64,000 nt of DNA from Leptolyngbya sp. KIOST-1 (GTDB taxonomy: Bacteria; Cyanobacteriota; Cyanobacteriia; Phormidesmidales; Phormidesmidaceae), in NCBI RefSeq assembly GCF_000763385.1, contig NZ_JQFA01000002.1:806001-870000 (forward strand), written 5' to 3'. Position numbers and translations under genes: made by a program. Position 1 is the first letter of the stretch, and each line of letters starts with the position of its first letter. Shown here piece by piece: positions 7,005 to 61,488 of the stretch. Under the pieces are notes generated by a model. It had not been told where the DNA came from and did not search any database. It was given only the letters and a program-made list of their open reading frames with translations.

Positions 7005-7125
7005 CACTGAGCAGGTCGATCGTCTGATTGACCAGGGCGGTGGCCAGATCGGCGTCTAGCTGCTCAAATCCCAACTTCTGCAGCATGCGCTGCCGGTAGT
7101 AGGTCTCGTAGCGATCCTTGAAGGG
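7005..7125 (-). pseudogene. Fragment resembling SelO/YdiU protein adenylyltransferase (C-terminal part)
   Basis: The minus strand reads FKDRYETYYRQRMLQKLGF followed by LDADLATALVNQTIDLLSAV. The pattern YxxxYxxxMxxKLGL followed by an acidic helix is typical of the region near the end of SelO proteins, which AMPylate target proteins. There is no start or stop: the piece is cut at about 7125 by plus-strand sequence and at about 7005 by the returning IS66 end, where another frame reads PSLLPQFEPEQ and looks like the transposase C-terminus. The exact left edge is uncertain because both frames stay open there. Confidence 0.5.
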
Positions 7126-7129
7126 TTCT

Positions 7130-7228
7130 CTGGAGCAGCCCGCCGCCTACCCCGTCGCCCTCTCCGATGCCCTAGCCGAGCTGACGGCGCGCACCCGTCG
7201 CGGCCCGCAGCCCCAGTCCCAGTCCTGA
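7130..7228 (+). pseudogene. 3' tail of an upstream NAD-pathway gene, possibly nicotinate phosphoribosyltransferase
   Basis: The plus frame reads EQPAAYPVALSDALAELTAR and ends with a TGA at 7226-7228, 2 bp before the nadD-like ATG. The YPV-LS-AL-L pattern resembles the end of PncB proteins, and a tight pncB-nadD pair would make metabolic sense. The fragment is short, so the name is tentative. It shows that a contiguous piece spanning two genes was captured. Confidence 0.4.
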
Positions 7229-7230
7229 GG

Positions 7231-7588
7231 ATGGCCGCCATGACCTCACCGGAACGTTCCACCGATCGCGCCACCGGGCTCCACGTTGCCCTGTTTGGCA
7301 CCAGCGCCGACCCGCCCCATCGGGGACACGCAGCCATTTTGGCCTGGCTGGCCACCCAGTTTGACCACGTGGCGGTGTGGACGGCCAACAACCCGTTTAA
7401 AGCCCACCAGACCGACCTGGGCGATCGCTTTCGCATGCTGGAGCTGCTGATTGACGAGCTAGACGCCCCGCCCCAGCGGGTGCAGGTGCACCCCGAACTC
7501 AGCCACCGGCGCACCGTCGTCACCCTGGAGCGGGCGCGGCAAATTTGGCCGGGGGCCAGGTTTGCGCTGGTGGTCGGGGCCGACCTGT
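7231..7588 (+). pseudogene. nadD: nadD 5' fragment (nicotinate-nucleotide adenylyltransferase)
   Basis: From the ATG at 7231 or 7240 the frame reads VALFGTSADPPHRGHAAIL, the nucleotidyltransferase (T/H)xGH-type motif, then VWTANNPFKAH, and reaches LVVGADL at about residue 119, where the similarity stops. NadD normally runs to about 190-200 residues; here it crosses into antisense IS66 transposase sequence at about 7588. The piece lacks the C-terminal catalytic part (the ISxTxxR motif) and cannot be a working NaMN adenylyltransferase. A functional nadD should exist elsewhere because the enzyme is usually essential. Confidence 0.8.
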
Positions 7589-8690
7589 TAAAGCCAGCCC
7601 GCAAGGGTTTGACGAACTCGATAAAGTCGGAGCGTACCAAGGTGCCATCACGCACCCGGTGCCACCAGCGAAATAATCGCCGCTGCCGCCTCAGCAGCGC
7701 CTCGCCAATCTCACGCGAGACGCCGCTACGGTCTGCCATGGCGGTGAAGTCTCGCTTCAGATGCGCCCAGCACACCTGCCATCGGGTCACCTCAATCCAC
7801 CGGTAGGCGCTGTAGCGGTCAGAGGTGACAATTCCTGAAAACTCTTCACCAATCAGGGCTTTAGCAGTCGCCTGTGACCGACTGAGCACCACCTCGAAAA
7901 AACTCACCAGCGGCGTCACCAGCACCCATAGCCAGCCTTTAGTGCGCTGGGGATTTCCCCCGTCTCGATTGCCTTGGGGGTAACTGGTTTCATCACTATG
8001 CATCACGGGTTGGCTCTGCACGTAGGCCTTGGCCTCCTCCACCGCCGGACTCACCGCGTCACTGATTTCTTGCCGCAAACGCCCGATGCCACCACGAGAG
8101 AGGCGCACCCCGAAGAGGTCGTCCATCACCGCACACACCTGCCGATAGCTCAGCCGGTACCCCCCACTCAGCAAGGCCACCATCGCCGTCAGTCGTTCAC
8201 CATAGCCCAGGGCAGAGACCCCCGACGGCAGCTCGGCGCGGGTTACCGTGTCGCAGCACGGGCACCTCAGGCCATGCAATCGATACTCCACCACCTCGGG
8301 TTTAACCGGTGGCACTTCTATCACTTGATGGCGGTGAGGATGAGAATCGTGGCCTGATAAGCTAGCTCCACAGGCGTCGCAGGCCGGGGGAATCACCTCA
8401 TGGACGGCTCGACAATCTTCGGCGGGATATAGTTTTCGAGCTTCGCGAGGAGCAGTTTTCCCGCTCTGCTCTCGCGGGGCTTTCTTGCCTTTCCCTTTGG
8501 CTTTAACACCTTTGCCAAAGCCATCCGTTGACGGTGGTTTTGATGAATTCTGTGAATTCTGATTGACTTTCTCTTCCAACGCCATCAGCCGCTCACTCAG
8601 AACCCGCACTAACATTTGGATGCTAGCGGGGGTCGCTTCCCAGTCGGCCCTCGGAACTCGGATTCCAGCTATCTCGATCTCGTCGCTCAT
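7588..8690 (-). pseudogene. IS66-family transposase, C-terminally truncated
   Basis: From the ATG at 8690 the protein begins MSDEIEIAGIRVPRADWEAT and carries the coiled N-terminal region, the NSSKPPSTDGFGK motif, a zinc-finger-like set (CDACG, CPCCD) and DDE-type core segments (HSDETSYP, TSDRYSAYR, CWAHLKRDF), as in single-gene IS66 elements. At about residue 367 (FVKPLRAGF) the sequence changes to antisense nadD; the glutamate of the catalytic triad and the C-terminal region should lie beyond this point. The frame stays open to 7056 by chance. A C-terminal remnant may survive at 6910-7005. The element is probably non-autonomous. Confidence 0.85.
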
Positions 8691-11376: not shown

Positions 11377-14300
11377 TTAAGCCGGATTTTCCCCTTCCTG
11401 AAACGGCTGATGCACGGGCTTTTCTGCCTCTGGATAGACCGGTCCTGTTTCGGGCTCTGGATAGACCAATCCTGTTTCGGGTTCTAGATAGACCAGACCG
11501 GCTTCGGGTATAAACTCGCCATCATCTCCCTTAAAGCCATTGCCAGCGCTGTCGTCATCGCTGGGTGGCGGCGGCGTTTTCGAGCCCAGAAAATGCATTG
11601 CCAGGCTTTTGATCACCACATAGAGCACCGGCACAATCAAGAAGCTGAGCACCGTCGCCACCAGCAGCCCGCCAAACAGGGCGCTGCCGATCGCCCAGCG
11701 GGAGGCAGACCCGGCCCCGGTGGCAATCACCAGCGGGAAGAAACCCACCAGGGAGGAAATTGCCGTCATCAAAATCGGGCGGAACCGTTCCTCGGCGGCT
11801 CGTTGGGCCGACTGCACCAGGGTCAACCCCTCGGCCCGGGACTGGTTGGCAAACTCCACAATTAGAATGGCGTTTTTGCTGGCGAGGCCAATCAGCATCA
11901 CCAGGGCCACCTGCACATACACGTCGTTGTTCAGCCCCCGCAGGGCAATGAACCCCAAGGCACCCAGCATGGCCAGCGGCACCGTCAGCAGAATGATGAT
12001 GGGGTCAATGTAGCTTTCGTACTGGGCAGCCAGGGTAAGGAACACCATGATGATGCCGAATAGGAACACCAGGGCGCCCAGATTTCCGGCGGCCAGTTGC
12101 TCCTTGGCCAGACCAATCCAGTCGCTGCCCAGACCGGGGATCGCGGCCTCTTTAACCGCTGCATCCATTGCCGCGATCGCCTGGCTGCTAGAGTAGCCCT
12201 CGGCTTCCCTAAACTGGAGCCGAATCGAGCGATAGCCATTGAAGTGGGGAATAATCTGCGGCCCGGTGATGGGGCTGATGGTGGCCAGTTGGCCCAGGGG
12301 GATCATCTGCCCGGTGCGCGATCGCACGTATAGATTTTCCAGGTCATCGGGGCTGTTGCGGTAGTCGCCTTGGGCCTGTACAAACACCTTATAGCTGCGG
12401 GTGCCAAGGGTGAAGTCGTTGACATACTGGGACCCCACCGAAGCGCCGATGGTTTGCAACGCCTGCTGGAAATCGACATCGAGCGCTTCGAGCTGGTTGC
12501 GATCAAGATCGATCTGGAGTTGAGGGGTGCCGGTGGTGAATTGGGTACGAGCCGTGCCATTGATGGCAGGCTTTGCGTTGGCTGCCGTCAGGATATCCTG
12601 CGCCGCCCCCAAGAAGTCATCCATCGTCAAGCGGCCACCGCTGCGATCCTGCAACTCCAGTTCTGACTCCCCCGTGGCGCTAAAGCCGGGAATGGGGGGC
12701 GGGTTAAAGGCCACAATGCGCGCCTGCCGATTTTGGAAAAACCGTTGATTGAGCCGTCGGAGAATGCTATTGACATCCTGCCCGGGGCCGGTGCGATCAT
12801 CCCAGTGGGTGAGTTTGGCAAAAAAGAGACCCTGGTTAGGGCCGCTACCCTGCAACCCGGCACCGCTAGCGACAAAATAGGACTCGACTTCGGGAATTTC
12901 CCGCAGGCTGGTTTCCACAAAGCGCATCACCTGATCGGTATAGCTAACCGAGACCCCGTCCGGGCCCTGCACCGTGCCCAGCACAATGCCCTGGTCCTCC
13001 GAGGGCACAAAGCCCCCCGGCACAGCCATAAACATGTAGTAGGTGGCCACCAGACCCGCCACAAACACGGCCATCACCACGTAGCGCAGGCGAATCAGGT
13101 AGGCGACCGCAGCTTTGTACTGGGCAGAAATCCAGGCCAAGGCCTGGTTAAACTTGTCGAAGAACCAGCGCAGGGGGCCCCCAGAGTCGGCATCGGCGGC
13201 CATTTCCGCCTGGGAACGGAGCAAAATAGCTGCCATCGACGGGCTAAAGCTGAGGGCGTTAAAGGTCGAAACCACCACGGAAAAGGCAATAATCAGGGCG
13301 AACTGCTGGTACAACTGCCCCGTCGTCCCCGGAAAAAACGCCACGGGAATAAACACCGCCATCAGCACCAGGGAGGTGGAGACTACCGCCCCGGAAATCT
13401 CCTCCATCACAGCGACAGAGGCCTGTTTGGGAGTCATGCCCTCCGAGATTTTGGTGGTCACCGCCTCCACAATCACGATCGCATCGTCCACCACTAGTCC
13501 CGTAGCCAAAATGAGGCCGAACAGGGTCAGACTGTTGAGGGAGAAGCCAAACGCAAAGGCAAAGGCCAGCGCGCCTATCAGCGCCACCGGAATAGCAACA
13601 GCCGGAATGACGGTGGTGCGCCAGTCTTGCAGAAAGATGAAGATGACCAGAATCACCAAGCCGATCGCCTGGAGCAGGGTAATGAAGACCTCCTGAATCG
13701 ACACCCGAATAAAATCGGTGGTGTCATAGACAATCGAGGAGGTGAGCCCCGGCGGAAAACTCTGGCTCAGGGTTTCCATCTCGGCTGTGATGTTAGCGCC
13801 TACATCGAGGGCATTACTGCCGGGTAGCTGGTAAATGGCAATACCCACCCCAGGCTGACCATTGACCTGGGCGTTGCTGACGTAGTTTTCAGCCCCTAAC
13901 TCCGCATAGCCCACGTCTTTTAGGCGCACGAGGGTGCCGTTGGGTAGGGTTTTGATGACTAAATTCTCAAACTCGGCGGCGCTTTCGAGACGCCCCTGGA
14001 TGCGAATGGGGAGTTCAAAGCTCTGCCCCTCCGGCACCGGCTCCTGGCCAATCGATCCAGCCCCCACAACTACGTTTTGCGATCGCAGCGCATTGCTCAC
14101 ATCCAGCATCGTCAGCTGGCGGGCCGTCAGCTTCTGAGGGTCGAGCCAGAGGCGCATGGCGTTTTGCTTCAGGCCAAACACCGAGACATCCCCCACCCCG
14201 GGCACCCGCTTGAGCACATCGGTGATGTTCAGGTCGACATAGTTGCTGATGAAAATGTCATCGTACTCGCCGTTTTCAGCATAAATGCCTAAAATCAGCA

Positions 14301-14721
14301 AAATACTGCTGGATGACGCTCGGGTAGATACCCCCAGTTGCTGCACCGGGCTGGGCAGTTGGGGCAGGGCCTGGGCCACCCGGTTTTGCACATTCACCTG
14401 GCTGATATTTTTATCCACCCCGGTGGGAAACAGCACCGAAATACTGCTGGTCCCGGCAAAGGTTTGGGAAGCCATGGACTCCATGCCCTCCACTCCGTTA
14501 ATGTTGCGCTCGAGAATAGTGGTGACGGTATTCTCCACGGTTTCCACGTCTGCGCCCGTGTAGGAACTCCGCACCTGAATTTGAGTGGGGGAAATATCCG
14601 GTAGGTAGTTGATCGGCAACAGTGGAATACAAACCGCCCCAACCAGCAGAATCACGATGGTACAGACGGTGGTCAGGACGGGGCGCTTGATGAAATTAGT
14701 GGCGATCGAAAAAAGAGCCAT
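11377..14721 (-). CDS. RND multidrug efflux permease (HAE1/AcrB type)
   Basis: This 1114-residue protein begins MALFSIATNFIKRPVLTT, a typical RND first helix. It has two large periplasmic loops, a helix bundle with the proton-relay motif GLVVDDAIVIVE near residue 410, and the second half-repeat ending around VLYVVIKSLA. It should export lipophilic or drug-like substrates using the proton gradient, together with the adaptor encoded 9 bp upstream and an outer-membrane channel not found here. The C-terminal tail is unusual: after an Asp-rich linker there are three 9-residue units (GLVYLEPET, GLVYPEPET, GPVYPEAEK) encoded by a 27-bp tandem repeat near 11425-11505. Confidence 0.93.
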   Translation of the reverse strand: MALFSIATNFIKRPVLTTVCTIVILLVGAVCIPLLPINYLPDISPTQIQVRSSYTGADVETVENTVTTILERNINGVEGMESMASQTFAGTSSISVLFPTGVDKNISQVNVQNRVAQALPQLPSPVQQLGVSTRASSSSILLILGIYAENGEYDDIFISNYVDLNITDVLKRVPGVGDVSVFGLKQNAMRLWLDPQKLTARQLTMLDVSNALRSQNVVVGAGSIGQEPVPEGQSFELPIRIQGRLESAAEFENLVIKTLPNGTLVRLKDVGYAELGAENYVSNAQVNGQPGVGIAIYQLPGSNALDVGANITAEMETLSQSFPPGLTSSIVYDTTDFIRVSIQEVFITLLQAIGLVILVIFIFLQDWRTTVIPAVAIPVALIGALAFAFAFGFSLNSLTLFGLILATGLVVDDAIVIVEAVTTKISEGMTPKQASVAVMEEISGAVVSTSLVLMAVFIPVAFFPGTTGQLYQQFALIIAFSVVVSTFNALSFSPSMAAILLRSQAEMAADADSGGPLRWFFDKFNQALAWISAQYKAAVAYLIRLRYVVMAVFVAGLVATYYMFMAVPGGFVPSEDQGIVLGTVQGPDGVSVSYTDQVMRFVETSLREIPEVESYFVASGAGLQGSGPNQGLFFAKLTHWDDRTGPGQDVNSILRRLNQRFFQNRQARIVAFNPPPIPGFSATGESELELQDRSGGRLTMDDFLGAAQDILTAANAKPAINGTARTQFTTGTPQLQIDLDRNQLEALDVDFQQALQTIGASVGSQYVNDFTLGTRSYKVFVQAQGDYRNSPDDLENLYVRSRTGQMIPLGQLATISPITGPQIIPHFNGYRSIRLQFREAEGYSSSQAIAAMDAAVKEAAIPGLGSDWIGLAKEQLAAGNLGALVFLFGIIMVFLTLAAQYESYIDPIIILLTVPLAMLGALGFIALRGLNNDVYVQVALVMLIGLASKNAILIVEFANQSRAEGLTLVQSAQRAAEERFRPILMTAISSLVGFFPLVIATGAGSASRWAIGSALFGGLLVATVLSFLIVPVLYVVIKSLAMHFLGSKTPPPPSDDDSAGNGFKGDDGEFIPEAGLVYLEPETGLVYPEPETGPVYPEAEKPVHQPFQEGENPA

Positions 14722-14730
14722 GCTGCCTCC

Positions 14731-15993
14731 CTACAGTCCTGACTGGGGCGCACTGGACTCGGGCGCAATGGCCACACCATCGTTGAGCCGCAAAATGTTA
14801 GATACAGCAATCCGGTCTCCCTGATCGAGACCCGACAGCACCTGGTAGCGATCGCCCTGAATCGCCCCTAAGTCAACGGGCTGAAGGGTGACAAATTCCT
14901 GGCCGTTTTCGTTGGGTTGCTCGGCCACCAAAAACACGAAATCCTTGCCCCCTAACCGCGAGATTGCCGTGGTCGGCACCAAAATTCCCGGTTGAGTTTG
15001 CCAGATAATGCGCGCCGCCACAAACTGACCATCCCGCAAACGCCCCTCCACATTCTGAAACTGGGCTCGGGTTAAAATGCTCTGGGAACTAGCGTTTACC
15101 GTAGGGGCAACAAAGATTAAATTGCCGGTCGCCAATTGCTGTTTGCTGTTGGGATCGAGCAACTCCACCGTCAGCCCCGTTCTGAGTTGGTTGGCCCGTT
15201 CTGGCGGCACCTCAATATTTAAAAATAGACTCTCGACCTGGGCAATTCGAGTGATGGCCTGACCAACGCTGACGAAATCGCCGACGTTGACCGTCAGATT
15301 GTCGAGGACACCAGCCACCGGCGCGACTACATTGCGGAAGCTAACACTGACCTGGGAGGCATCGGCCTGGGCCTGGGCCTGACGAATCTGGGCTTCGGCC
15401 TGCTGGACCGCCACTTCGGCGGCCGCGACCTGCTTGTTGGCGGCAATCAGTTGATTTTGTGAGGCTTCTAGTTTGGACTGGGCTTCATCCAAACGAATTT
15501 GGGCCAGCCCCCCCGCCGCCACTAGTTTTTGGGCCCGGTCCACGTTGGCCCGATCAAAATTTAAGGTGGACTGAACGGTGTCTCGCTGGGCTTTGGCGAT
15601 GTCCAGGGACTTCTGGGCATTATCCCGCTGACCCATGGCTACATCTACTCCAGCGATCGCCCCCTGGAACTGCGGCTCAGCCTGGTCGGGCCGCAGGACT
15701 AGAAGAGACTGACCCGCCGCGACTTCCTGTCCCGGAGTCACCAGGATGCGCTCGATTCGTCCTTGGGTTTCAGTCCGTACCTCGGCGATTTGGGTAGCTT
15801 CGAGTTGGCCCACAAATTCGGTGCTGGTTTTAACGGTGCCGGTCTGGAGGGTTTCCACATCGACGGGTACAACCGGCGCAGCGGCACTGGCTTCGGGCGT
15901 GGGCCGACAGCTAGTGGCCAGCACGGACAGGGATAGCGCTGTCCCCATCAGCAGGGGAGACAGGCGGCTCAGCAGGGGTGTTCTGAGTTCCAT
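14731..15993 (-). CDS. RND efflux periplasmic adaptor (membrane fusion protein)
   Basis: From the ATG at 15993 the protein has a signal segment (LLMGTALSLSVLATSC) with a possible but weak lipoprotein cysteine. It is followed by a biotinyl-lipoyl-like half (GRIERILVTPGQEVAAGQSL), a long Ala/Gln-rich coiled-coil hairpin (about residues 110-215), the second lipoyl half (NVVAPVAGVLDNLTVNVGDF) and beta-barrel segments. This is the AcrA/HlyD-type adaptor layout, about 420 residues. It is read just before the RND permease and surely forms an operon with it. A TTG at 16020 would add nine residues; the ATG better fits a signal peptide. Confidence 0.9.
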   Translation of the reverse strand: MELRTPLLSRLSPLLMGTALSLSVLATSCRPTPEASAAAPVVPVDVETLQTGTVKTSTEFVGQLEATQIAEVRTETQGRIERILVTPGQEVAAGQSLLVLRPDQAEPQFQGAIAGVDVAMGQRDNAQKSLDIAKAQRDTVQSTLNFDRANVDRAQKLVAAGGLAQIRLDEAQSKLEASQNQLIAANKQVAAAEVAVQQAEAQIRQAQAQADASQVSVSFRNVVAPVAGVLDNLTVNVGDFVSVGQAITRIAQVESLFLNIEVPPERANQLRTGLTVELLDPNSKQQLATGNLIFVAPTVNASSQSILTRAQFQNVEGRLRDGQFVAARIIWQTQPGILVPTTAISRLGGKDFVFLVAEQPNENGQEFVTLQPVDLGAIQGDRYQVLSGLDQGDRIAVSNILRLNDGVAIAPESSAPQSGL

Positions 15994-16321
15994 GGGCGTA
16001 CCAAAAAGTCCATCTGTCAAAGGGAGGATTTCCCTGGAGATTATAAGGCCGAGTTAGAGTTTTTTTGGGGTAGTTAAAGATGTTCTAAGTATTTCAAAAA
16101 TCAACGTTCTATGGCCTTGGGTTGTCCAGAAAGGTCTTAGGCCTCTAGGTGCCTTCCCGGTATGCTCCTGATGTCTGAAGGGCTAGAAATGATACCCAGG
16201 AAAAGTGAAAAATTTGTGTAGTGGATTCATGGAATGGGGATCTTTCGAAGGGATTAGAGATGAAATTCCTATCATTAAAGACAGCCAGAAATTGACAACC
16301 TTGAATTCAGGGCAGCCTATG
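15994..16321. other. Intergenic region upstream of the efflux operon
   Basis: This 328-bp gap separates the adaptor start from the end of a small secreted-protein gene on the same strand, so it should hold the efflux promoter. It is AT-richer than its neighbours. No clear repressor palindrome or coding frame was found. Confidence 0.4.
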
Positions 16322-16603
16322 CTAATTAAAAATGGCATCGATCGCTCTTATCCGATTTCTGCCCCGACGAATACCATCGCGAAACTGATCAATATCGTCT
16401 AGGGTGTTGCAGAGATCGGGGTCGCGGTTTCGGTCTGCCCTGCGATCGCAAATATCCCGGCGCACGGTGTCGCGAATGTCATCTCGAATTTCGTCACGGA
16501 TACTGTCACGAATGACATTCCCCAAACTCTCATCGGCCAGGGCCGCTGAATAGATCGTGGGCAGGGTCGCGATCGCGAGGAGTAGGCTGTAAATGGGTTT
16601 CAT
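16322..16603 (-). CDS. Small secreted protein with repeated IRD units
   Basis: From the ATG at 16603 the 93-residue product begins MKPIYSLLLAIATLPTIYSA with a signal-peptide cleavage site near ALA-DE. The mature part is highly charged and built on a short repeat: VIRDSIRDEIRDDIRDTV, then RRDICDRRADRNRD. Two cysteines may form a disulfide. It is the last gene of a minus-strand run of three genes that each encode a signal sequence. The family is not recognised. The in-frame ATG at 16612 is an alternative start. Confidence 0.6.
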   Translation of the reverse strand: MKPIYSLLLAIATLPTIYSAALADESLGNVIRDSIRDEIRDDIRDTVRRDICDRRADRNRDPDLCNTLDDIDQFRDGIRRGRNRIRAIDAIFN

Positions 16604-16612
16604 GGATGGCAT

Positions 16613-17199
16613 TTAAGGAATAAGAGAGAAAGACTCGAAAAAATGCTCGAAGTTGGCCTGGTCGTCATCAATGGCCAGCACCAGGTAAAGGCGATCGCCG
16701 GTAGTGCTGAGGGTTGCAACCAAAAATTGCCCTAATCCCTCGGCCGTCATCAGTCGAGCCGGAAGTCCCTGAAAAGCAATGGCTTCAATGGCCAAGGTTG
16801 TGCTCAATTGCTCATCTTGAATGTCACTGACCACAGCCCTTGCCGCAGCCTCTAACACCTCTTTTTGAGGGAACTCGTAGCGTAGCCTCCGGGGATATCG
16901 GCATAGGCCACCAGGTAGTACTCAAACAAATCAATCTCATCCACCGCTGGCCGCGTCACGGAACGCATATGCCAGCGCAGTTCGTGATTCAGCAGGGTAC
17001 TGGTACCGGTTTGTTCTACGGGAGTTCCTGGCAAATCTACCAGGTAGCGGCCCGAGATAGGAGAAGACGGTTGCCAGGGCAACGCTTGACTATTTTCGGC
17101 GCTTTCCTGTTGGGCCAGAACCGGTTGTTCAGCCCTTGCCGCTGGAAGAAAAGACAGAATAGAACCGAGCAGAAATAGGGTGAACAGGATTGATTTCAT
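16613..17199 (-). pseudogene. Secreted protein gene broken by a frameshift
   Basis: The first part (17199-16852) has a signal peptide (FTLFLLGSILSFLPAARA) and a mature part ending EYYLVAYADIPGGYATSSL. A second frame (16858-16613) reads EAAARAVVSDIQDEQLSTTL and ends DQANFEHFFESFSLIP. The two overlap at a run of five A on the coding strand at about 16862-16866. Adding one A joins them as SSLKKEVLEAAARAVVSD, giving about 195 residues. The break is either real decay, a sequencing error or slippage in the A run. The family is not recognised. Confidence 0.65.
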
Positions 17200-17217
17200 C
17201 TTGGTCAGCAGTAGTAA

Positions 17218-17659
17218 TTAGAGATTTGACCGGAAGTCCTGACTGGCCTCCAGAATGCCATCATTGGAAACCGCAGTAATCAGAAACACACCAAACGGCT
17301 GATCGCAGCTCAAATAGTCCGCATAGACGGCCTGTAGACAGGGTTGAAAGGCCCATTCTGAGATAGCTCATCCTCATCGTAGGTGCCCGCCGCCAACAAA
17401 ATGACCCATTTTTGCCGTGCCCCGGTCTGAATAGAGTTGCCAAAGAGGACTTCAGTTCTGGGCTGCCTTCCCCCATCTGGGCGAAGGCCTCCAGCGCCTT
17501 GACGGGCAAAGAGCGGGAGACAAAACCGTAGTCAAAAAAGATAGTTTCTGCCGCCTTGACTGGAATAGCGATTAGCAGAGACAGCTCAATTCCAACCGCC
17601 AACCCTAAACGATGCTGAATGCGACTAAACAAACTCACGCTCAACCTCTGACGAGACAC
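17218..17659 (-). pseudogene. Decayed secreted-protein gene with a DUF1400-like start
   Basis: From the ATG at 17659 there is a signal sequence (LAVGIELSLLIAIPVKAAE) followed by TIFFDYGFVSRSLPVKALEA, which resembles the N-terminal DUF1400 segment of cyanobacterial lipase-like hydrolases. After ELKSSLATL the sensible reading moves to a second frame (IQTGARQKWVILLAAGTYDE) and then to a third (FQPCLQAVYADYLSCDQPFG) that ends at a TAA at 17218-17220. At least two frameshifts in about 250 bp argue for a pseudogene. It starts a run of three signal-peptide genes. Confidence 0.5.
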
Positions 17660-17879
17660 GACACAGTAGAAGAGGCACTCACCTCATCCAAGCCAGGGCT
17701 ATTCAGAATTGATAAAGGGTCAACGTTGGGCACTGAAAATCAGGATGAACTGATGCTAGAGAACTCACGCACACCATCATTGAGAAGCCTCTATTGCAGG
17801 CAGGGAGGTCGTCATAGCCGGATACCGAATCGCGCCGACAAGATCCAAACAGGCGAAACCATGGCATTACTTTAGAAAA

Positions 17880-17917
17880 AAGACTGTAGGGGAAAGACTG
17901 TAGGGAGAAGACTGTGG
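17880..17917. promoter_or_regulatory. Triple AAGACTGTAGGG-type repeat upstream of the response-regulator gene
   Basis: Three near-identical units (AGACTGTAGGGG, AGACTGTAGGGA, AGACTGTGGC) follow each other with a 13-14 bp period, about 100 bp before the regulator start. Direct repeats of this kind are typical binding arrays for OmpR-type winged-helix regulators, so autoregulation is possible. The rest of the 356-bp gap (17660-18015) shows no gene. Confidence 0.35.
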
Positions 17918-18015
17918 CATTTTGTGTGAAAGTAAGGATCGCATCAAAAGGTAAAAAGTTCGTGTAATATCAACACTATTCTCATTGGATTGCTTTAATC
18001 CATCCCCATTAGTTG

Positions 18016-19242
18016 ATGAAAATTCTGCTGGTTTCATCCGATAACGTTTTGCAACATCAGCTGCAGCAATCGCTGTGTCACCACAATTTGATTACTGACG
18101 CTGCCAGCGATGGGCAAGAGGCCTGGGATTTGCTGCAAGCCTTTGTGTATGACGTGGTCTTGCTGGAAGCCCAGTTACCTGGGGTGGACGGGCTCAGTCT
18201 GTGCCGGCATTTGCGCGATGCGGGCAATCCGGTGCTGATTGTACTGATCATCGAGCCCGCCGTTTCCGAAGCTTGCCTCCAGGGCTTAGATAGCGGTGCC
18301 GACGCCTGTCTCCCCAAACCCATTCCCGTACCTGAACTGCTGGCCCACCTGCGCGCGCTCGCTCGACGAGGCGGGCGTCGCGCCAACCCCAAGTTAACCT
18401 GGGGGCCGCTGTTGCTCGACCCCGTCGCCCAGCGAATTACCTGCCAGGGCCAGGATTTAAAGCTAAATCGGAAAGAGTACCAACTGCTGGAATTGTTTCT
18501 GAGCCATCCCCGGCAGATGTTTCCCCGCAGCGAAATTGGCGATCGCCTGTGGACCCTAGATGACGACATTCCCAGTGACGCAACGGTCAAAAGCCACATC
18601 CGCAGCATTCGCCGCAAGCTAGAACAGGTGGGTGCTGACGATGTGATTCAAACCCACTACGGGCAGGGCTACTGCTTGAACCCGGTCTACGACCCTGTCG
18701 TCCGCTCAGCTCAGGGTAAAACACCCAAGCCAGAACTGCCGTTGGACGGTATTACCGCCAACATCTGGCAGGAGTTGATGACGGCCAATGCGCGCCTACA
18801 GCAGGAAATTGAGTACCGCCGACAGGTTGAGTCTCAGCTGAGACGTTCAGAATTGATGCTGCGCACCGCTCAGCGGGTCGCGCAAATTGGCTGCTGGGAG
18901 GTGGACCTTCACACGCGAGAAATCTACTGGACTGAGGAGTTATTTCTGATCCACGGTCTCTCTCCCGAGGGGCCAACCCCCAGTTACGAAGAATCCTTAA
19001 CCCTGATCCATCCCGATGACCGACAACTCCATGCAGAGGCCATCTATGGCCCGGCCAGTCGAGGCGAAGCCTTTGAAGCCAACCTGCGGATTGTTCGGGC
19101 CAACGATGGTCAGGTTCGCTACATCAACGCCCGAGGGGGGCCGCTTTTCGATGCAGACGGAAAAGTGATCAAGCTAACAGGAACAACCTTTGATATAACT
19201 CGGTGGGTTGTTGACAAAAAATTGCCGTCACAAACGCTTTGA
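18016..19242 (+). CDS. REC-wHTH-PAS regulator with a degenerate receiver
   Basis: From the ATG at 18016 (a TTG lies one codon upstream) the 408-residue protein has a receiver domain (about 1-118), an OmpR-type DNA-binding domain (about 125-225, ending in HIRSIRRKLEQ and THYGQGYCL), a short coiled linker and a PAS/PAC domain (about 270-400). In the receiver the phospho-accepting Asp is replaced by Glu51 (VVLLEAQLPGVDG), the first acidic-pair residue is Ser (LVSSDN), and the Thr/Ser before the fourth helix is missing, while Lys101 remains. It may therefore act without phosphorylation. A C-terminal PAS on an OmpR-type regulator is uncommon, and a kinase part may have been lost, because the gene ends right after PAC. 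Confidence 0.85.
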   Translation: MKILLVSSDNVLQHQLQQSLCHHNLITDAASDGQEAWDLLQAFVYDVVLLEAQLPGVDGLSLCRHLRDAGNPVLIVLIIEPAVSEACLQGLDSGADACLPKPIPVPELLAHLRALARRGGRRANPKLTWGPLLLDPVAQRITCQGQDLKLNRKEYQLLELFLSHPRQMFPRSEIGDRLWTLDDDIPSDATVKSHIRSIRRKLEQVGADDVIQTHYGQGYCLNPVYDPVVRSAQGKTPKPELPLDGITANIWQELMTANARLQQEIEYRRQVESQLRRSELMLRTAQRVAQIGCWEVDLHTREIYWTEELFLIHGLSPEGPTPSYEESLTLIHPDDRQLHAEAIYGPASRGEAFEANLRIVRANDGQVRYINARGGPLFDADGKVIKLTGTTFDITRWVVDKKLPSQTL

Positions 19243-19256
19243 TTGAATTCGTTTTT

Positions 19257-19305
19257 TGGCTTTCAAAAAAAATCTGGATACCTGGCCTCAAAACCCATAA
19301 AATTA
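19257..19305. repeat. Short dispersed repeat R3, copy 2
   Basis: This segment (AAAAATCTGGATACCTGGCC then TCAAAACCCA) matches 5754-5800 in the same orientation. It starts 15 bp after the regulator's stop codon, as copy 1 starts shortly after the tamB-like gene. Confidence 0.5.
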
Positions 19306-24353: not shown

Positions 24354-25454
24354 CTACAGGGGGGCACTGGCGCGATCGCACTCTCCCCCCAGAGCCGACA
24401 CAATCGTGCAGGTGTTGGCCACCAGCATGGCCTGTACGGTTTCGGCATCGCTGCCCCGCTCCCCTGGACCTTCGACGAGCAGCGGCTGCTCGGCTACGCT
24501 CACCCCGGCATCGTTGGCCACCGATTCGATCAGCTGCGGGTTGGTGGTGTCTTCGGCAAAGATGGCGGGCACCTGGGCGGCCTTCACCTGATCGACCAGG
24601 GCCCTCATCGCCCCAGGGGTGGGCCTTTCCTCAGTACTCAACCCGCTGAGTGCCCCCTTCACCTCAAAGCCATAGGCAGCGGCAAAGTAGTTAAACGCCT
24701 CGTGGGTGGTGACCAACTGTCGCTGGTCGGCGGGCACCGTTGTCACCTGGGCCTGAATCCAACGATCGATTTCGGCGAACTGGCTGGCCAGGCGATCGGC
24801 GTTTTCTGCATAGAAATCGGCCTGGTCGGGGTTGATCTGCGCCAGCGAGTCAGCAATGACGCTCACCATGGCGGCGTTGTGGATGGGATTGTGCCAGACG
24901 TGGGGATCGGGCACTAGCTCACCGTCCGCCGTAGCGCCGTGGTCATGGTCGTGGTCGTGGCCGTGGTCGTGGTCATGGTCATGACCGTGGTCGTGGCTGT
25001 GATCATGGCCGTGGTCGTGACTGTGGTCATGGGCTGCCCCCAAAAGCGGATCGGGCACCGCCACTTCAAAAACCGCTACCCGTTCGGCAGCGGTGGTGCT
25101 GTTTTCGACCACAGCAATCAGGCTGGGCGCTGCGTTGTAGCCGTCGTAGAGAATCAGATCGGCCTGCTCAATCGCCTGGCGATCGGAGGGCCGGACCTGG
25201 TAGGTGTGGGGATCGACGCCGGGCTCGAGCAGACAGGTGAGCGCTACCGTTGTCTCTGCAATCTGCTCGGTCAAATCGCAGATTACGCTGGTAGTCGCCA
25301 CCACCACCGGACTTTCAGCCTCAGCAGCGGCGGCATCGTCGGGGGATGTCACCGCAACATCGTCACCGCTGCAGCCGACTAAACCGAGGGCCAGCACCAG
25401 GCCCAGGCGTCCCGACCAGCGAACCACCGTCGCCGTCCCTGGATTGAAAACCAT
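24354..25454 (-). CDS. znuA: Zinc ABC transporter substrate-binding lipoprotein (ZnuA type)
   Basis: The 366-residue protein has a lipoprotein signal (LVLALGLVGC-SG, Cys28), a cluster A-1 binding-protein fold (VVATTSVICDLTEQIAETTV, LLEPGVDPHTYQVRPSD, DPHVWHNP, FAEDTTNPQLIESVANDAG) and a long His/Asp loop (about 140-175) made of HDHDHDHG-type repeats between the first metal His and the core. Such a loop is typical of zinc rather than manganese binding proteins. It diverges from the ATPase gene around a Zur-like box. No permease gene lies nearby. Confidence 0.93.
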   Translation of the reverse strand: MVFNPGTATVVRWSGRLGLVLALGLVGCSGDDVAVTSPDDAAAAEAESPVVVATTSVICDLTEQIAETTVALTCLLEPGVDPHTYQVRPSDRQAIEQADLILYDGYNAAPSLIAVVENSTTAAERVAVFEVAVPDPLLGAAHDHSHDHGHDHSHDHGHDHDHDHGHDHDHDHGATADGELVPDPHVWHNPIHNAAMVSVIADSLAQINPDQADFYAENADRLASQFAEIDRWIQAQVTTVPADQRQLVTTHEAFNYFAAAYGFEVKGALSGLSTEERPTPGAMRALVDQVKAAQVPAIFAEDTTNPQLIESVANDAGVSVAEQPLLVEGPGERGSDAETVQAMLVANTCTIVSALGGECDRASAPL

Positions 25455-58272: not shown

Positions 58273-61200
58273 ATGACGGCTTCCATTCCCACGCTTTCTG
58301 CCCAGTACGACCCCACTCAAACTGAGACCAAGTGGCAAACCCAGTGGGAATCAAACCAGGTCTTTAGGGCCGACCCCGACCACCCCGGTGCGCCCTTCTG
58401 CGTGGTGATTCCGCCACCGAACGTGACCGGCAGCCTGCACATGGGCCACGCCTTTGAGAGCGCCCTGATCGACACCCTGGTGCGCTACCAGCGGATGGCG
58501 GGGCGCAACACCCTCTGGCTGCCCGGCACCGACCACGCCAGCATTGCCGTGGCCACTATTCTCGATCGCCAGATGCAGGCCGAAGGCACCAGCAAAGAGG
58601 AGCTGGGGCGCGATCGCTACCTGGAGCGAGCCTGGGACTGGAAGGCCGAGTCCGGGGGCACCATCGTCAACCAGCTGCGCAAGCTGGGGGTCTCGGTAGA
58701 CTGGAGCCGCGAGCGCTTCACCATGGATGAGGGGCTGTCCCACGCGGTGCTGACCGCCTTTACCCAGCTCTACGACGAGGGGTTGATCTATCGGGGCAAC
58801 TACCTGGTCAACTGGTGCCCCGCCAGCCAGTCGGCGGTGTCGGATCTGGAGGTGGAGCAGCGCGAGGTTGATGGCCACCTGTGGCACTTCCGCTACCCCT
58901 TCACCGACGGCTCGGGCTACGTGGAAGTGGCCACCACCCGGCCCGAAACCATGCTGGGCGACACGGCGGTGGCGGTGAATCCCAACGACGATCGCTACCG
59001 GCACTTGGTCGGCAAAACCCTGACTTTGCCCCTGGTCAACCGCGAAATTCCGATCATCGCCGACGAGTACGTGGACGCGGCGTTTGGCACCGGCTGTGTC
59101 AAAGTCACCCCCGCCCACGACCCCAACGACTTTGCCATGGGCCAGCGCCACAACCTGCCCATGATCACCGTCATGAACAAAGACGGCACCATGAACGAAA
59201 ACACCGCCCACTTCCAGGGGCTGGATCGCTTCGAGGCCCGCAGCGCGGTGGTGCGTCAGCTCGATGACGAAGGGTTTCTGGTGCGAATTGAGGAGTACAG
59301 GCACACGGTGCCCTACAGCGATCGCGGCAAGGTGCCGGTCGAGCCGCTGCTCTCCACCCAGTGGTTTGTGAAAATTCGCCCCCTGGCCGACAATGCCCTG
59401 GACTACCTGGACCACCGCCGGTCGCCCAGGTTCGTGCCCGAGCGCTGGACCAAGGTGTACCGCGACTGGCTGGTGAATTTGAAGGACTGGTGTATCTCGC
59501 GCCAGCTGTGGTGGGGTCACCAGATCCCGGCCTGGTACGCCGTGAGCGAGACCGGCGGCGAAATCACCGACGACACGCCCTTTGTGGTGGCCGCGACAGA
59601 AGAGGAAGCCAAAGCCAAGGCCACCGAGCGGTTTGGCGAATGGGTGACCCTGACCCGCGACCCCGACGTGCTCGACACCTGGTTTTCCTCCGGGCTGTGG
59701 CCCTTCTCCACCATGGGCTGGCCCGATGAATCAGCCCAGGACTTTCAGACCTACTACCCCACCACCACCCTGGTCACGGGCTTCGACATCATCTTTTTCT
59801 GGGTGGCCCGCATGACCATGATGGCGGGCCACTTCACCGACACCATGCCCTTCGAGACCGTCTACATCCACGGCCTGGTGCGGGACGAGAACAACAAAAA
59901 AATGTCGAAGTCGGCCAACAACGGCATCGACCCGCTGGTGCTGATCAACAAGTACGGCACCGATGCCCTGCGCTACACCCTGATTCGCGAAGTCACCGGG
60001 GCGGGCCAGGACATTCGCCTGGAGTACGATCGCAGCACCGATGAGTCGGCCTCCGTGGAAGCCAGCCGCAACTTCACCAACAAGCTGTGGAACGCCTCCC
60101 GCTTCGTGATGATGAACCTGGGCGGGCAGTCGCCGCTAAGCCTGGGGGTGCCCGATCTAGATAGCCTGGAGCTGGCCGATCGCTGGATTTTGTCCCGCTT
60201 TAACCGGGTGGTAGCCAGCGTGCGCGACAACCTCGACGCCTACGGCATGGGCGAGGCCGCCAAGGAACTCTACGAGTTTGTCTGGGGCGATTTCTGCGAC
60301 TGGTATATCGAGCTGGTCAAGCCGCGCCTCCAGGGTGAGGGGTCGGCCAAGTTCACGGCCGCCCAGCAGACCCTCGCCTTTGTGCTGGACGGCATTCTCA
60401 AGCTGCTGCACCCGTTTATGCCCCACATCACCGAGGAGCTGTGGCACACCCTCAACCAGGTGGGCGACGACCAGTTTCTCGCCGTGCAGCCCTACCCCAC
60501 CCCCTTTGAGGGCCTGGTGGACGACGACCTGGAGCAGCAGTTTGCCCTGGTGTTTAACACCGTGCGCACCGTGCGCAACCTGCGGGCCGAGGCGGGGATC
60601 AAGCCTAGCCTGCGGATCGAAACCATTCTGGAGAGCGACAGCGCCACCGAGCGCCACATTCTGCACGCCACCGCCGACTACATCAAAGACCTGGGCAAGA
60701 TCGACACCCTGGTGATTTTGGGCGGTAAGCAGCCGGTTTCCACCGCCCACGCCGCCGAATCGGGCTCGCCCCCCAGCCCCCTGGCGAAGCTGGGCGACAA
60801 TCCGGTGGTGGCCGAGGTGCAGGACTTCTGGCACACCATGCTGCCGCTGTTTGAAGAGCCCCTGCACTTTGCGGGCGCGTTCTTTGAGGATGTTCGTCGC
60901 CCGGCCTTTACCCTGCTGTGGATTTTTGCCGGGGTGGTGTTGCTCAAGTTTGGCGGTGCCCTGGTCCATGCCGTCGACACCACGCCCATTTTTGGCACCC
61001 TGATGGAGCTGGTCGGCCTCTGGGTGGTGGTCAACTTCGTGCGGCAGAATCTGCTCACGGGGGGCGATCGCCAGCGCCTTACCCAAACCTACCAAACCTG
61101 GCGACGCCAGATCTTTGGCGACGACACCGCCGCTGCAAAAGCCAGGCCCCCAGCCCTGCGCCCTGTTGCCCCGCCCGCAGAAAATGGCAGCACCGCTGCC

Positions 61201-61488
61201 CCGACTGACGAAACCTCGGAGCCGTCCCAAAAGCTGTTCGCCGGGGTGACGGGCACCGTACAGGTGCTGATTCCCCTGACCGGAGTGGTGGATGTGGACG
61301 CCCTGCGGGCCAAGGTGGAAAAAGACCTGACCAAGGTCGAGGCCGAAATCAAGTCCCTCTCGGGCCGGTTGAGCAACCCCGGCTTTGTGGACAAAGCCCC
61401 CGCCGAGGTGGTGCAGGGGGCACGGGATGCCCTGGCCGAGGCCGAGGCCCAGGCGGCGATCCTGAAGTCTCGCCTGGCGATGCTGTAG
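58273..61488 (+). CDS. valS: Valyl-tRNA synthetase with inserted CAAD membrane domain
   Basis: The 1071-residue enzyme has HIGH (SLHMGHAFE) near residue 55, a CP1 editing domain, KMSKS ([10 protein letters not shown]) near residue 545 and an anticodon-binding domain to about 810. Residues about 843-945 are an extra domain with two membrane helices (877-901, [17 protein letters not shown]; 907-928, [14 protein letters not shown]) followed by [12 protein letters not shown]. This is the cyanobacterial aminoacyl-tRNA synthetase appended domain (CAAD), which anchors such enzymes to thylakoid membranes. The coiled-coil tRNA-binding arm (about 990-1071) follows after a Pro/Ala linker. A normal bacterial ValRS is about 880-950 residues. 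Confidence 0.95.

Follow-up and report, generated by a model that had tools for sequence, protein, structure and literature searches.

A pseudo-receiver regulator of OmpR/PhoB type with a C-terminal PAS domain and a conserved upstream site in cyanobacteria

The stretch of DNA analysed here (the window) comprises 64,000 nucleotides of the 6.3-Mb genome of Leptolyngbya sp. KIOST-1. It carries an intact open reading frame (18016-19242, plus strand) that is a real gene and encodes a regulator of 408 amino acids. All parts of the protein lie on the plus strand: a pseudo-receiver (residues 3-112; 18022-18351), an OmpR/PhoB-type winged helix DNA-binding domain (residues 145-221; 18448-18678), a predicted long linker helix (residues 245-289; 18748-18882) and a PAS_3 domain (residues 303-390; 18922-19185). 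The Pfam matches exceeded their cut-offs for Response_reg (PF00072, E = 3.9e-17), Trans_reg_C (PF00486, E = 5.8e-20, 71.6 bits versus 26.2) and PAS_3 (E = 5e-15, 56 bits versus 25.6). With a Trans_reg_C winged helix C-terminal to the receiver, the protein belongs to the OmpR/PhoB type. Its AlphaFold model (mean pLDDT 66.8, pTM 0.35) is usable for the receiver and poor for the PAS domain, where segments 350-363 and 365-408 fall below a pLDDT of 50; the linker helix leading into the PAS domain is an uncertain prediction (block pLDDT 40 to 78). A plasmid search of positions 15900-19300 gave no match.

Elsewhere in the window, an IS66-type transposase gene (7056-8690, minus strand) overlaps an open reading frame (7231-7806, plus strand) that by eye resembles a truncated nucleotide adenylyltransferase. 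Also by eye, 24354-25454 (minus strand) resembles a metal-binding protein with a long His/Asp-rich repeat, and 58273-61488 (plus strand) a valyl-tRNA synthetase into which a hydrophobic segment is inserted close to the C-terminal part, similar to the CAAD domains of cyanobacteria.

In order to assess the phosphorylation pocket, the receiver was aligned with 16 canonical relatives, in which the acidic pair occupies positions 7 and 8 (E/D and D, respectively). In the window receiver this pair is replaced by S7 and S8, with D9 falling outside it, while Glu51 stands in place of the phospho-Asp, Ile79 in place of the switch Thr and Cys98 in place of the Tyr three residues before the Lys (K-3); the residue after the switch position (T+1) is Glu80. 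Lys101 is the sole survivor among the five pocket residues. A preliminary description of this gene had correctly recognized the Glu51 substitution, the lost Thr/Ser switch and the retained Lys, but had counted only one acidic residue as lost where both are Ser, and had passed over Cys98 and Glu80. With both acidic residues, the Asp and the Thr missing from its PF00072 domain, the protein contains a pseudo-receiver, defined in PMC12632262 as a receiver that is short of at least one of the five pocket residues. It likewise counts as an aspartate-less receiver (ALR), Glu51 having replaced the phospho-Asp, and not as a canonical two-component response regulator, as four of five residues of a complete pocket are gone.

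The same changes run through the family, for which we identified 16 members in 14 cyanobacterial genomes. Position 7 is occupied by S (12), E (2), I (1) or A (1), and position 8 by P (6), A (5), S (3), T (1) or C (1), so that the second site is non-acidic in every member and the first in 14. Position 51 holds E in 13, D in two and A in one; position 79 holds L in nine, V in four, T in two (L069 and L106) and I in one, and is followed at position 80 by E (12), D (2), P (1) or A (1). Thus, 14/16 members lack the Asp and equally many the Thr. The Tyr/Phe at K-3 has been lost throughout (position 98: C 14, W 1, A 1), and position 101 is K in 12, H in two, Q in one and P in one. In comparison, the 16 canonical relatives all keep an acidic first residue, the second acidic residue, the Asp, the Tyr and the Lys, and 15 of them the Thr. 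Glu51 might mimic phosphorylation, a property of Glu mentioned in the preliminary description. Residues 51 and 101 covary (E/K 12, D/H 2, E/Q 1, A/P 1), which suits a charge pair without proving one. Both members with Asp51 carry S7, S8, C98 and H101 and are placed inside the group of Glu members.

Two genomes (G000 and G002) contain two copies each, and single copies occur in G013, G025, G165, G261, G349, G372, G456, G495, G534, G576, G600 and UBA8402; close relatives were found in Leptolyngbyaceae cyanobacterium SM2_5_2, Phormidium sp. FACHB-1136, Pseudanabaena sp. ULC068bin1 and Planktothrix sp. UBA8402. In one orthologue (L109, genome G165), a transposase-like open reading frame (L109:8199-9740, minus strand) is inserted between receiver and winged helix; its receiver was counted in the residue frequencies above, while the tree and the mean identities were computed without this protein. 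In a class-wide draw, the regulator was detected in 7/388 genomes at E-values of 1.6e-145 or better; 14 other genomes listed there gave only matches no better than 5.8e-86, and Asp51 is encoded at all 16 of these weaker loci that were read. By order, carriers amounted to 4/63 in the regulator's own order and to 1/38, 7/291, 1/42 and 5/243 in others, the last two large draws overlapping. From one homologue search, 28 of 32 loci were excluded from the family as distant receiver-winged helix or single-domain matches, and one alignment combined five family rows (the window and L035-L038) with five distant receiver-winged helix rows.

A midpoint-rooted tree of 36 rows (15 members without L109, 21 canonical rows) placed all 15 members on a single branch with support of 100/100. 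Closest to the family among the canonical rows is L078, whose pocket is intact and which joins the family branch at 98/95. L106 and L068, both with Glu51, are the first to branch within the family, and the two Asp51 members sit in the remaining 13-row group (97/94), which suggests that Asp probably came back in these two without the rest of the pocket. As the members form one branch next to a protein with an intact pocket, the loss is old. The alignment with cyanobacterial OmpR homologues proposed in the preliminary description found orthologues that are degenerate as well and group together. Recent decay, which it had named as refuting its reading if homologues had a canonical Asp in an otherwise intact protein, is rejected on the tree and on the pocket loss common to the orthologues. 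Since relatives in other cyanobacteria have the same changes, the gene seems not to be decaying but to encode a stable and self-contained signalling protein.

In six pairs that have members in common, dN/dS was 0.19-0.29 for the receiver, 0.04-0.27 for the winged helix and 0.06-0.34 for the PAS domain (one PAS value saturated), by which measure the receiver is under purifying selection. Between the window copy and its 72% paralogue, the ratio was 0.19 for the receiver and 0.12 for the winged helix, the PAS value being saturated. Regarding dimerization, we compared four residue pairs of the PhoB dimer face (D100/R122, D101/R115, R91 with its partner, and E96/K117). D100/R122 is kept in 16/16 members and E96/K117 is variable among them. 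In most members, both residues of D101/R115 have been replaced (first position A 14, T 1, E 1; second position H 8, Q 6, Y 1, R 1). The R91 position is Cys in 11 members, and its partner stays acidic in 13. Since two of the four pairs are altered, the usual dimer would not be assured.

Upstream of the regulator lies a conserved 22-bp site, AAAGGTAAAAAGTTCGTGTAAT (17947-17968, plus strand), which ends 47 bp before the ATG and is a candidate autoregulatory operator or core promoter. The corresponding element AAARGTRAAAARTTYGTGTAAT was found upstream of 14/16 members at no more than two mismatches (none in nine members, among them the window copy; one in two; two in three), whereas L068 and L070 have only weak forms with six and five mismatches, respectively. 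Its distance to the ATG is 30-47 bp in 12 members and approximately 200 bp in L101 and L107. Over nine members, mean pairwise identity was 0.88 within the site and 0.29-0.52 in the flanks; TGACA stands just 5' of it in several members, and the end TGTAA is found in all. In the 388 genomes, matches with at most one mismatch numbered seven in five genomes, all five of them family carriers, against none in the reversed control; six immediately precede a family gene and the seventh is at position 16201 of the window, while the carriers G013 and G349 had no match at this threshold. At up to three mismatches, the window's own genome contained three sites versus two in the reversed control, and 12 other carrier genomes contained 29 versus 20. 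The site was present at the regulator in 11 of these 12, the exception being G013 with a single three-mismatch site away from the regulator, and matches elsewhere did not exceed chance. At three mismatches, 100 shuffles of the window yielded no match.

Judged from its sequence, the element could be a core promoter instead of an operator. We considered a tandem direct repeat within it, but a shift of 11 agrees at 5/11 positions, no better than shifts of 7-9 with 6 of 13 to 15, and the usual OmpR-type repeat is thus unsupported. An HLR1/RpaB site was ruled out by eye against the published form. The preliminary description had instead proposed repeats of AAGACTGTAGGG at 17880-17917 (plus strand) as the binding site. 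These repeats exist, with two exact copies at 17880 and 17894 and a third copy, AAGACTGT, at a spacing of 14 bp, but among the 16 members they occur only at the window locus; for the other 15, no copy of AAGACTGTAGGG with two or fewer mismatches lies in the 500 bp before the gene. Being upstream of just 1/16 members, they were rejected as the operator, the conserved site being a different one.

Genes for a small membrane protein (~164 amino acids) and short-chain dehydrogenases (SDRs) are divergent from the regulator at 10/16 loci (L031 is cut by the contig end), and L068 and L070 have another SDR in the divergent place, with a twin-arginine-like start by eye. No divergent SDR was seen in the window, L101, L106 and L107, the latter two lying on short contigs. 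At the paralogue locus, the first SDR passes the NCBIfam cut-off for 7-alpha-hydroxysteroid dehydrogenase (458.5 versus 367), and the second passes none among the 25 NCBIfam families shown. The same block includes an outer-membrane barrel gene, which matches Alginate_exp in L067 and L070; L069 and L108 contain relatives of this gene. The membrane protein was present in 7/388 genomes, five of them regulator carriers (Fisher p = 6e-9, a value that overstates the association as related genomes are treated as independent). The other two genomes (G190 and G289) have the cassette without the regulator; a four-mismatch copy of the 22-bp site precedes the membrane protein gene by 57 bp in G190, and none was found at four mismatches in G289. 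Such cassettes of membrane protein and two SDRs were located at L149:2816-3310 (minus strand), where a four-mismatch site is kept, and at L150:5599-6153 (plus strand). A crude ATPase pattern for a partner histidine kinase next door, run without positive control, matched no open reading frame in 17 stretches (some short) covering the 16 loci; a partner encoded farther away may exist.

The window retains two later genes of the paralogue's block, one of them frameshifted, beside a DUF1400 fragment. The conserved neighbour protein of ~200 amino acids (16613-17199, minus strand) is split by a frameshift near 16891, and the alpha/beta hydrolase fragment of DUF1400 (17261-17659, minus strand) has a full-length relative that adjoins the regulator in L068. 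A second copy of the 22-bp site with one mismatch (16201-16222, plus strand) lies between the gene at 16322-16612 and a gene for an RND efflux periplasmic adaptor (14731-15993, minus strand; TIGR01730, 191.7 bits versus 94.9) and is a candidate target site. The adaptor and the RND efflux permease (11377-14721, minus strand; TIGR00915, 1107.6 versus 940.35) are candidate target genes. This copy is one occurrence in one genome, ~207 bp from the adaptor start, which was picked by eye (the list of open reading frames starts at a TTG at 16020).

With four of five phosphorylation residues absent from the receiver, the PAS domain is the obvious candidate input left, in line with the preliminary description. 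Its best matches among solved structures were the FixL PAS (8js5, E = 1.9e-9) and, at 1.7e-8, a GGDEF protein (3nja), followed by sensory kinases. A light or redox signal, as raised in the preliminary description, may be the input: blue-light-activated histidine kinases matched more weakly (7e-4 to 2.7e-3), as did a putative kinase for light and redox sensing (0.006). Over 15 members, mean pairwise identity was 68.0% for the PAS domain (minimum 55.4%) and 61.7% for the receiver (minimum 47.5%). Conservation above that of the receiver would fit a working sensor and would also suit a structural part.

Together, the domain layout, pocket loss, shared ancestry, conserved site and gene neighbourhoods incline us, on balance, towards a pseudo-receiver turned one-component regulator that takes its input through the PAS domain and acts on itself and a few neighbours. 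From these features we infer a phosphorylation-independent transcription regulator whose ancestor was a canonical response regulator of OmpR type. Its receiver, in which both metal-binding acids, Asp, Thr and coupling Tyr were replaced, may have been retained as a dimerization scaffold, and the C-terminal PAS domain on its long helix, the probable input, would shift how the pair of winged helices is seated on DNA. At its own promoter, the regulator would most likely bind the conserved 22-bp site, and in the commonest layout this site would be shared with the divergent operon that encodes a small membrane protein and two SDRs. For the window copy, which is without the SDR operon, the second site would make the adjacent RND efflux operon the likely target. 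A more far-reaching version, which we regard as possible but doubtful, is that the lineage gave up phosphorylation and remodelled its receiver, with E51, E80 and K101 as a fixed cluster of charges and cysteines lining the dimer face, and gained the PAS domain behind the DNA-binding domain. The result would be a single-protein switch made from a two-component part, which cyanobacteria carry patchily as a module together with its operator and dehydrogenase cassette and which, after duplication, was redirected towards an efflux pump.

An unlikely alternative is a constitutive regulator resembling ChxR, whose pseudo-receiver forms a permanent dimer, with the PAS domain structural or dimerizing only and output set by the amount of protein through the conserved promoter site. 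Varying expression of a constitutively active pseudo-receiver is one model named in a review of pseudo-receivers (PMC12632262). ChxR itself carries Glu at the Asp position (PMC4395418), and as described in PMC3960148 it lacks the Asp, is a stable dimer, is active unphosphorylated and binds sites in its own promoter, in keeping with a conserved site at the start of our regulator. However, the higher identity of the PAS domain suits a sensor, even if it also suits a structural part.

Less probable still is a redox-switched pseudo-receiver in which the family gained cysteines and disulphide formation sets activity, as in RitR or HP1021. Cysteines are present at position 98 in 14/16, at 143 in 16/16 and at 87 in 11/16 members, where the canonical relatives have Y (16/16), Y/F (15/16) and K/R (16/16), respectively; by analogy with PhoB, two of the three would lie on the dimer face from helix 4 to strand 5. 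Nevertheless, C87 is missing in L031, L068, L070, L106 and L109 and C98 in L106 and L108, Cys at 143 is seen in one canonical relative too, and the cysteines may simply occupy the room left by Lys and Tyr. Pseudo-receivers of the RitR and HP1021 type are redox regulated through Cys, but at other positions (PMC12632262). That the window copy is a degenerating, functionless paralogue seems very improbable: its surroundings are a broken copy of the paralogue's block, with frameshifted neighbour, fragment and missing SDR cassette, and one orthologue is interrupted, but its reading frame is intact, its dN/dS against the paralogue is low, its 22-bp site is free of mismatches and its pocket loss is common to the orthologues.

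The preferred reading, a one-component regulator with PAS input, would illustrate how two-component parts are rebuilt. The family offers a small testable case that combines pseudo-receiver and PAS domain with defined neighbours and a 22-bp site (at up to one mismatch) confined to carriers among 388 genomes, and it provides natural variants with Glu, Asp or Ala at position 51 and Lys, Gln, Pro or His at position 101.

Among known regulators, RppA (NF041734) was the best NCBIfam match (residues 1-222), but with 170.8 bits against a cut-off of 250 the protein is not a member; nor is it one of RpaB, another OmpR-type cyanobacterial regulator (96.5 versus 330 bits), and the NblR equivalog score also stayed below its cut-off (104.6 versus 300). 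The nearest tree rows are canonical cyanobacterial receiver-winged helix regulators with C-terminal extensions (L078 and others), which differ by their intact pocket; the extension of L078 is by eye Hpt-like and not a PAS domain. In published surveys, pseudo-receivers make up ~6% in a representative set of bacterial receivers (PMC12632262). Among proteins with the OmpR-type layout, ALRs accounted for 609 sequences (2%); ALRs most often have Glu in place of the Asp (26%), and they are enriched in cyanobacteria, among other groups (PMC4395418). Glu51 alone is therefore ordinary. For a receiver-winged helix protein with a C-terminal PAS domain, we found no account in the open-access literature searched, and we claim no absence from print. 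In its receiver-winged helix architecture with a replaced pocket, the regulator resembles the pseudo-receiver/ALR proteins ChxR, RitR, HP1043 and GlnR of the OmpR/PhoB type. Unlike these, it has a PAS domain C-terminal to the DNA-binding domain and has gained Glu at T+1; the two metal-binding acids are also gone, as is the Tyr/Thr coupling pair. The regulator is of a known kind in an uncommon layout. What is less ordinary is that this layout with a C-terminal PAS domain is conserved, that nearly all pocket and coupling residues are lost, and that a family-specific site and a gene module accompany the regulator.
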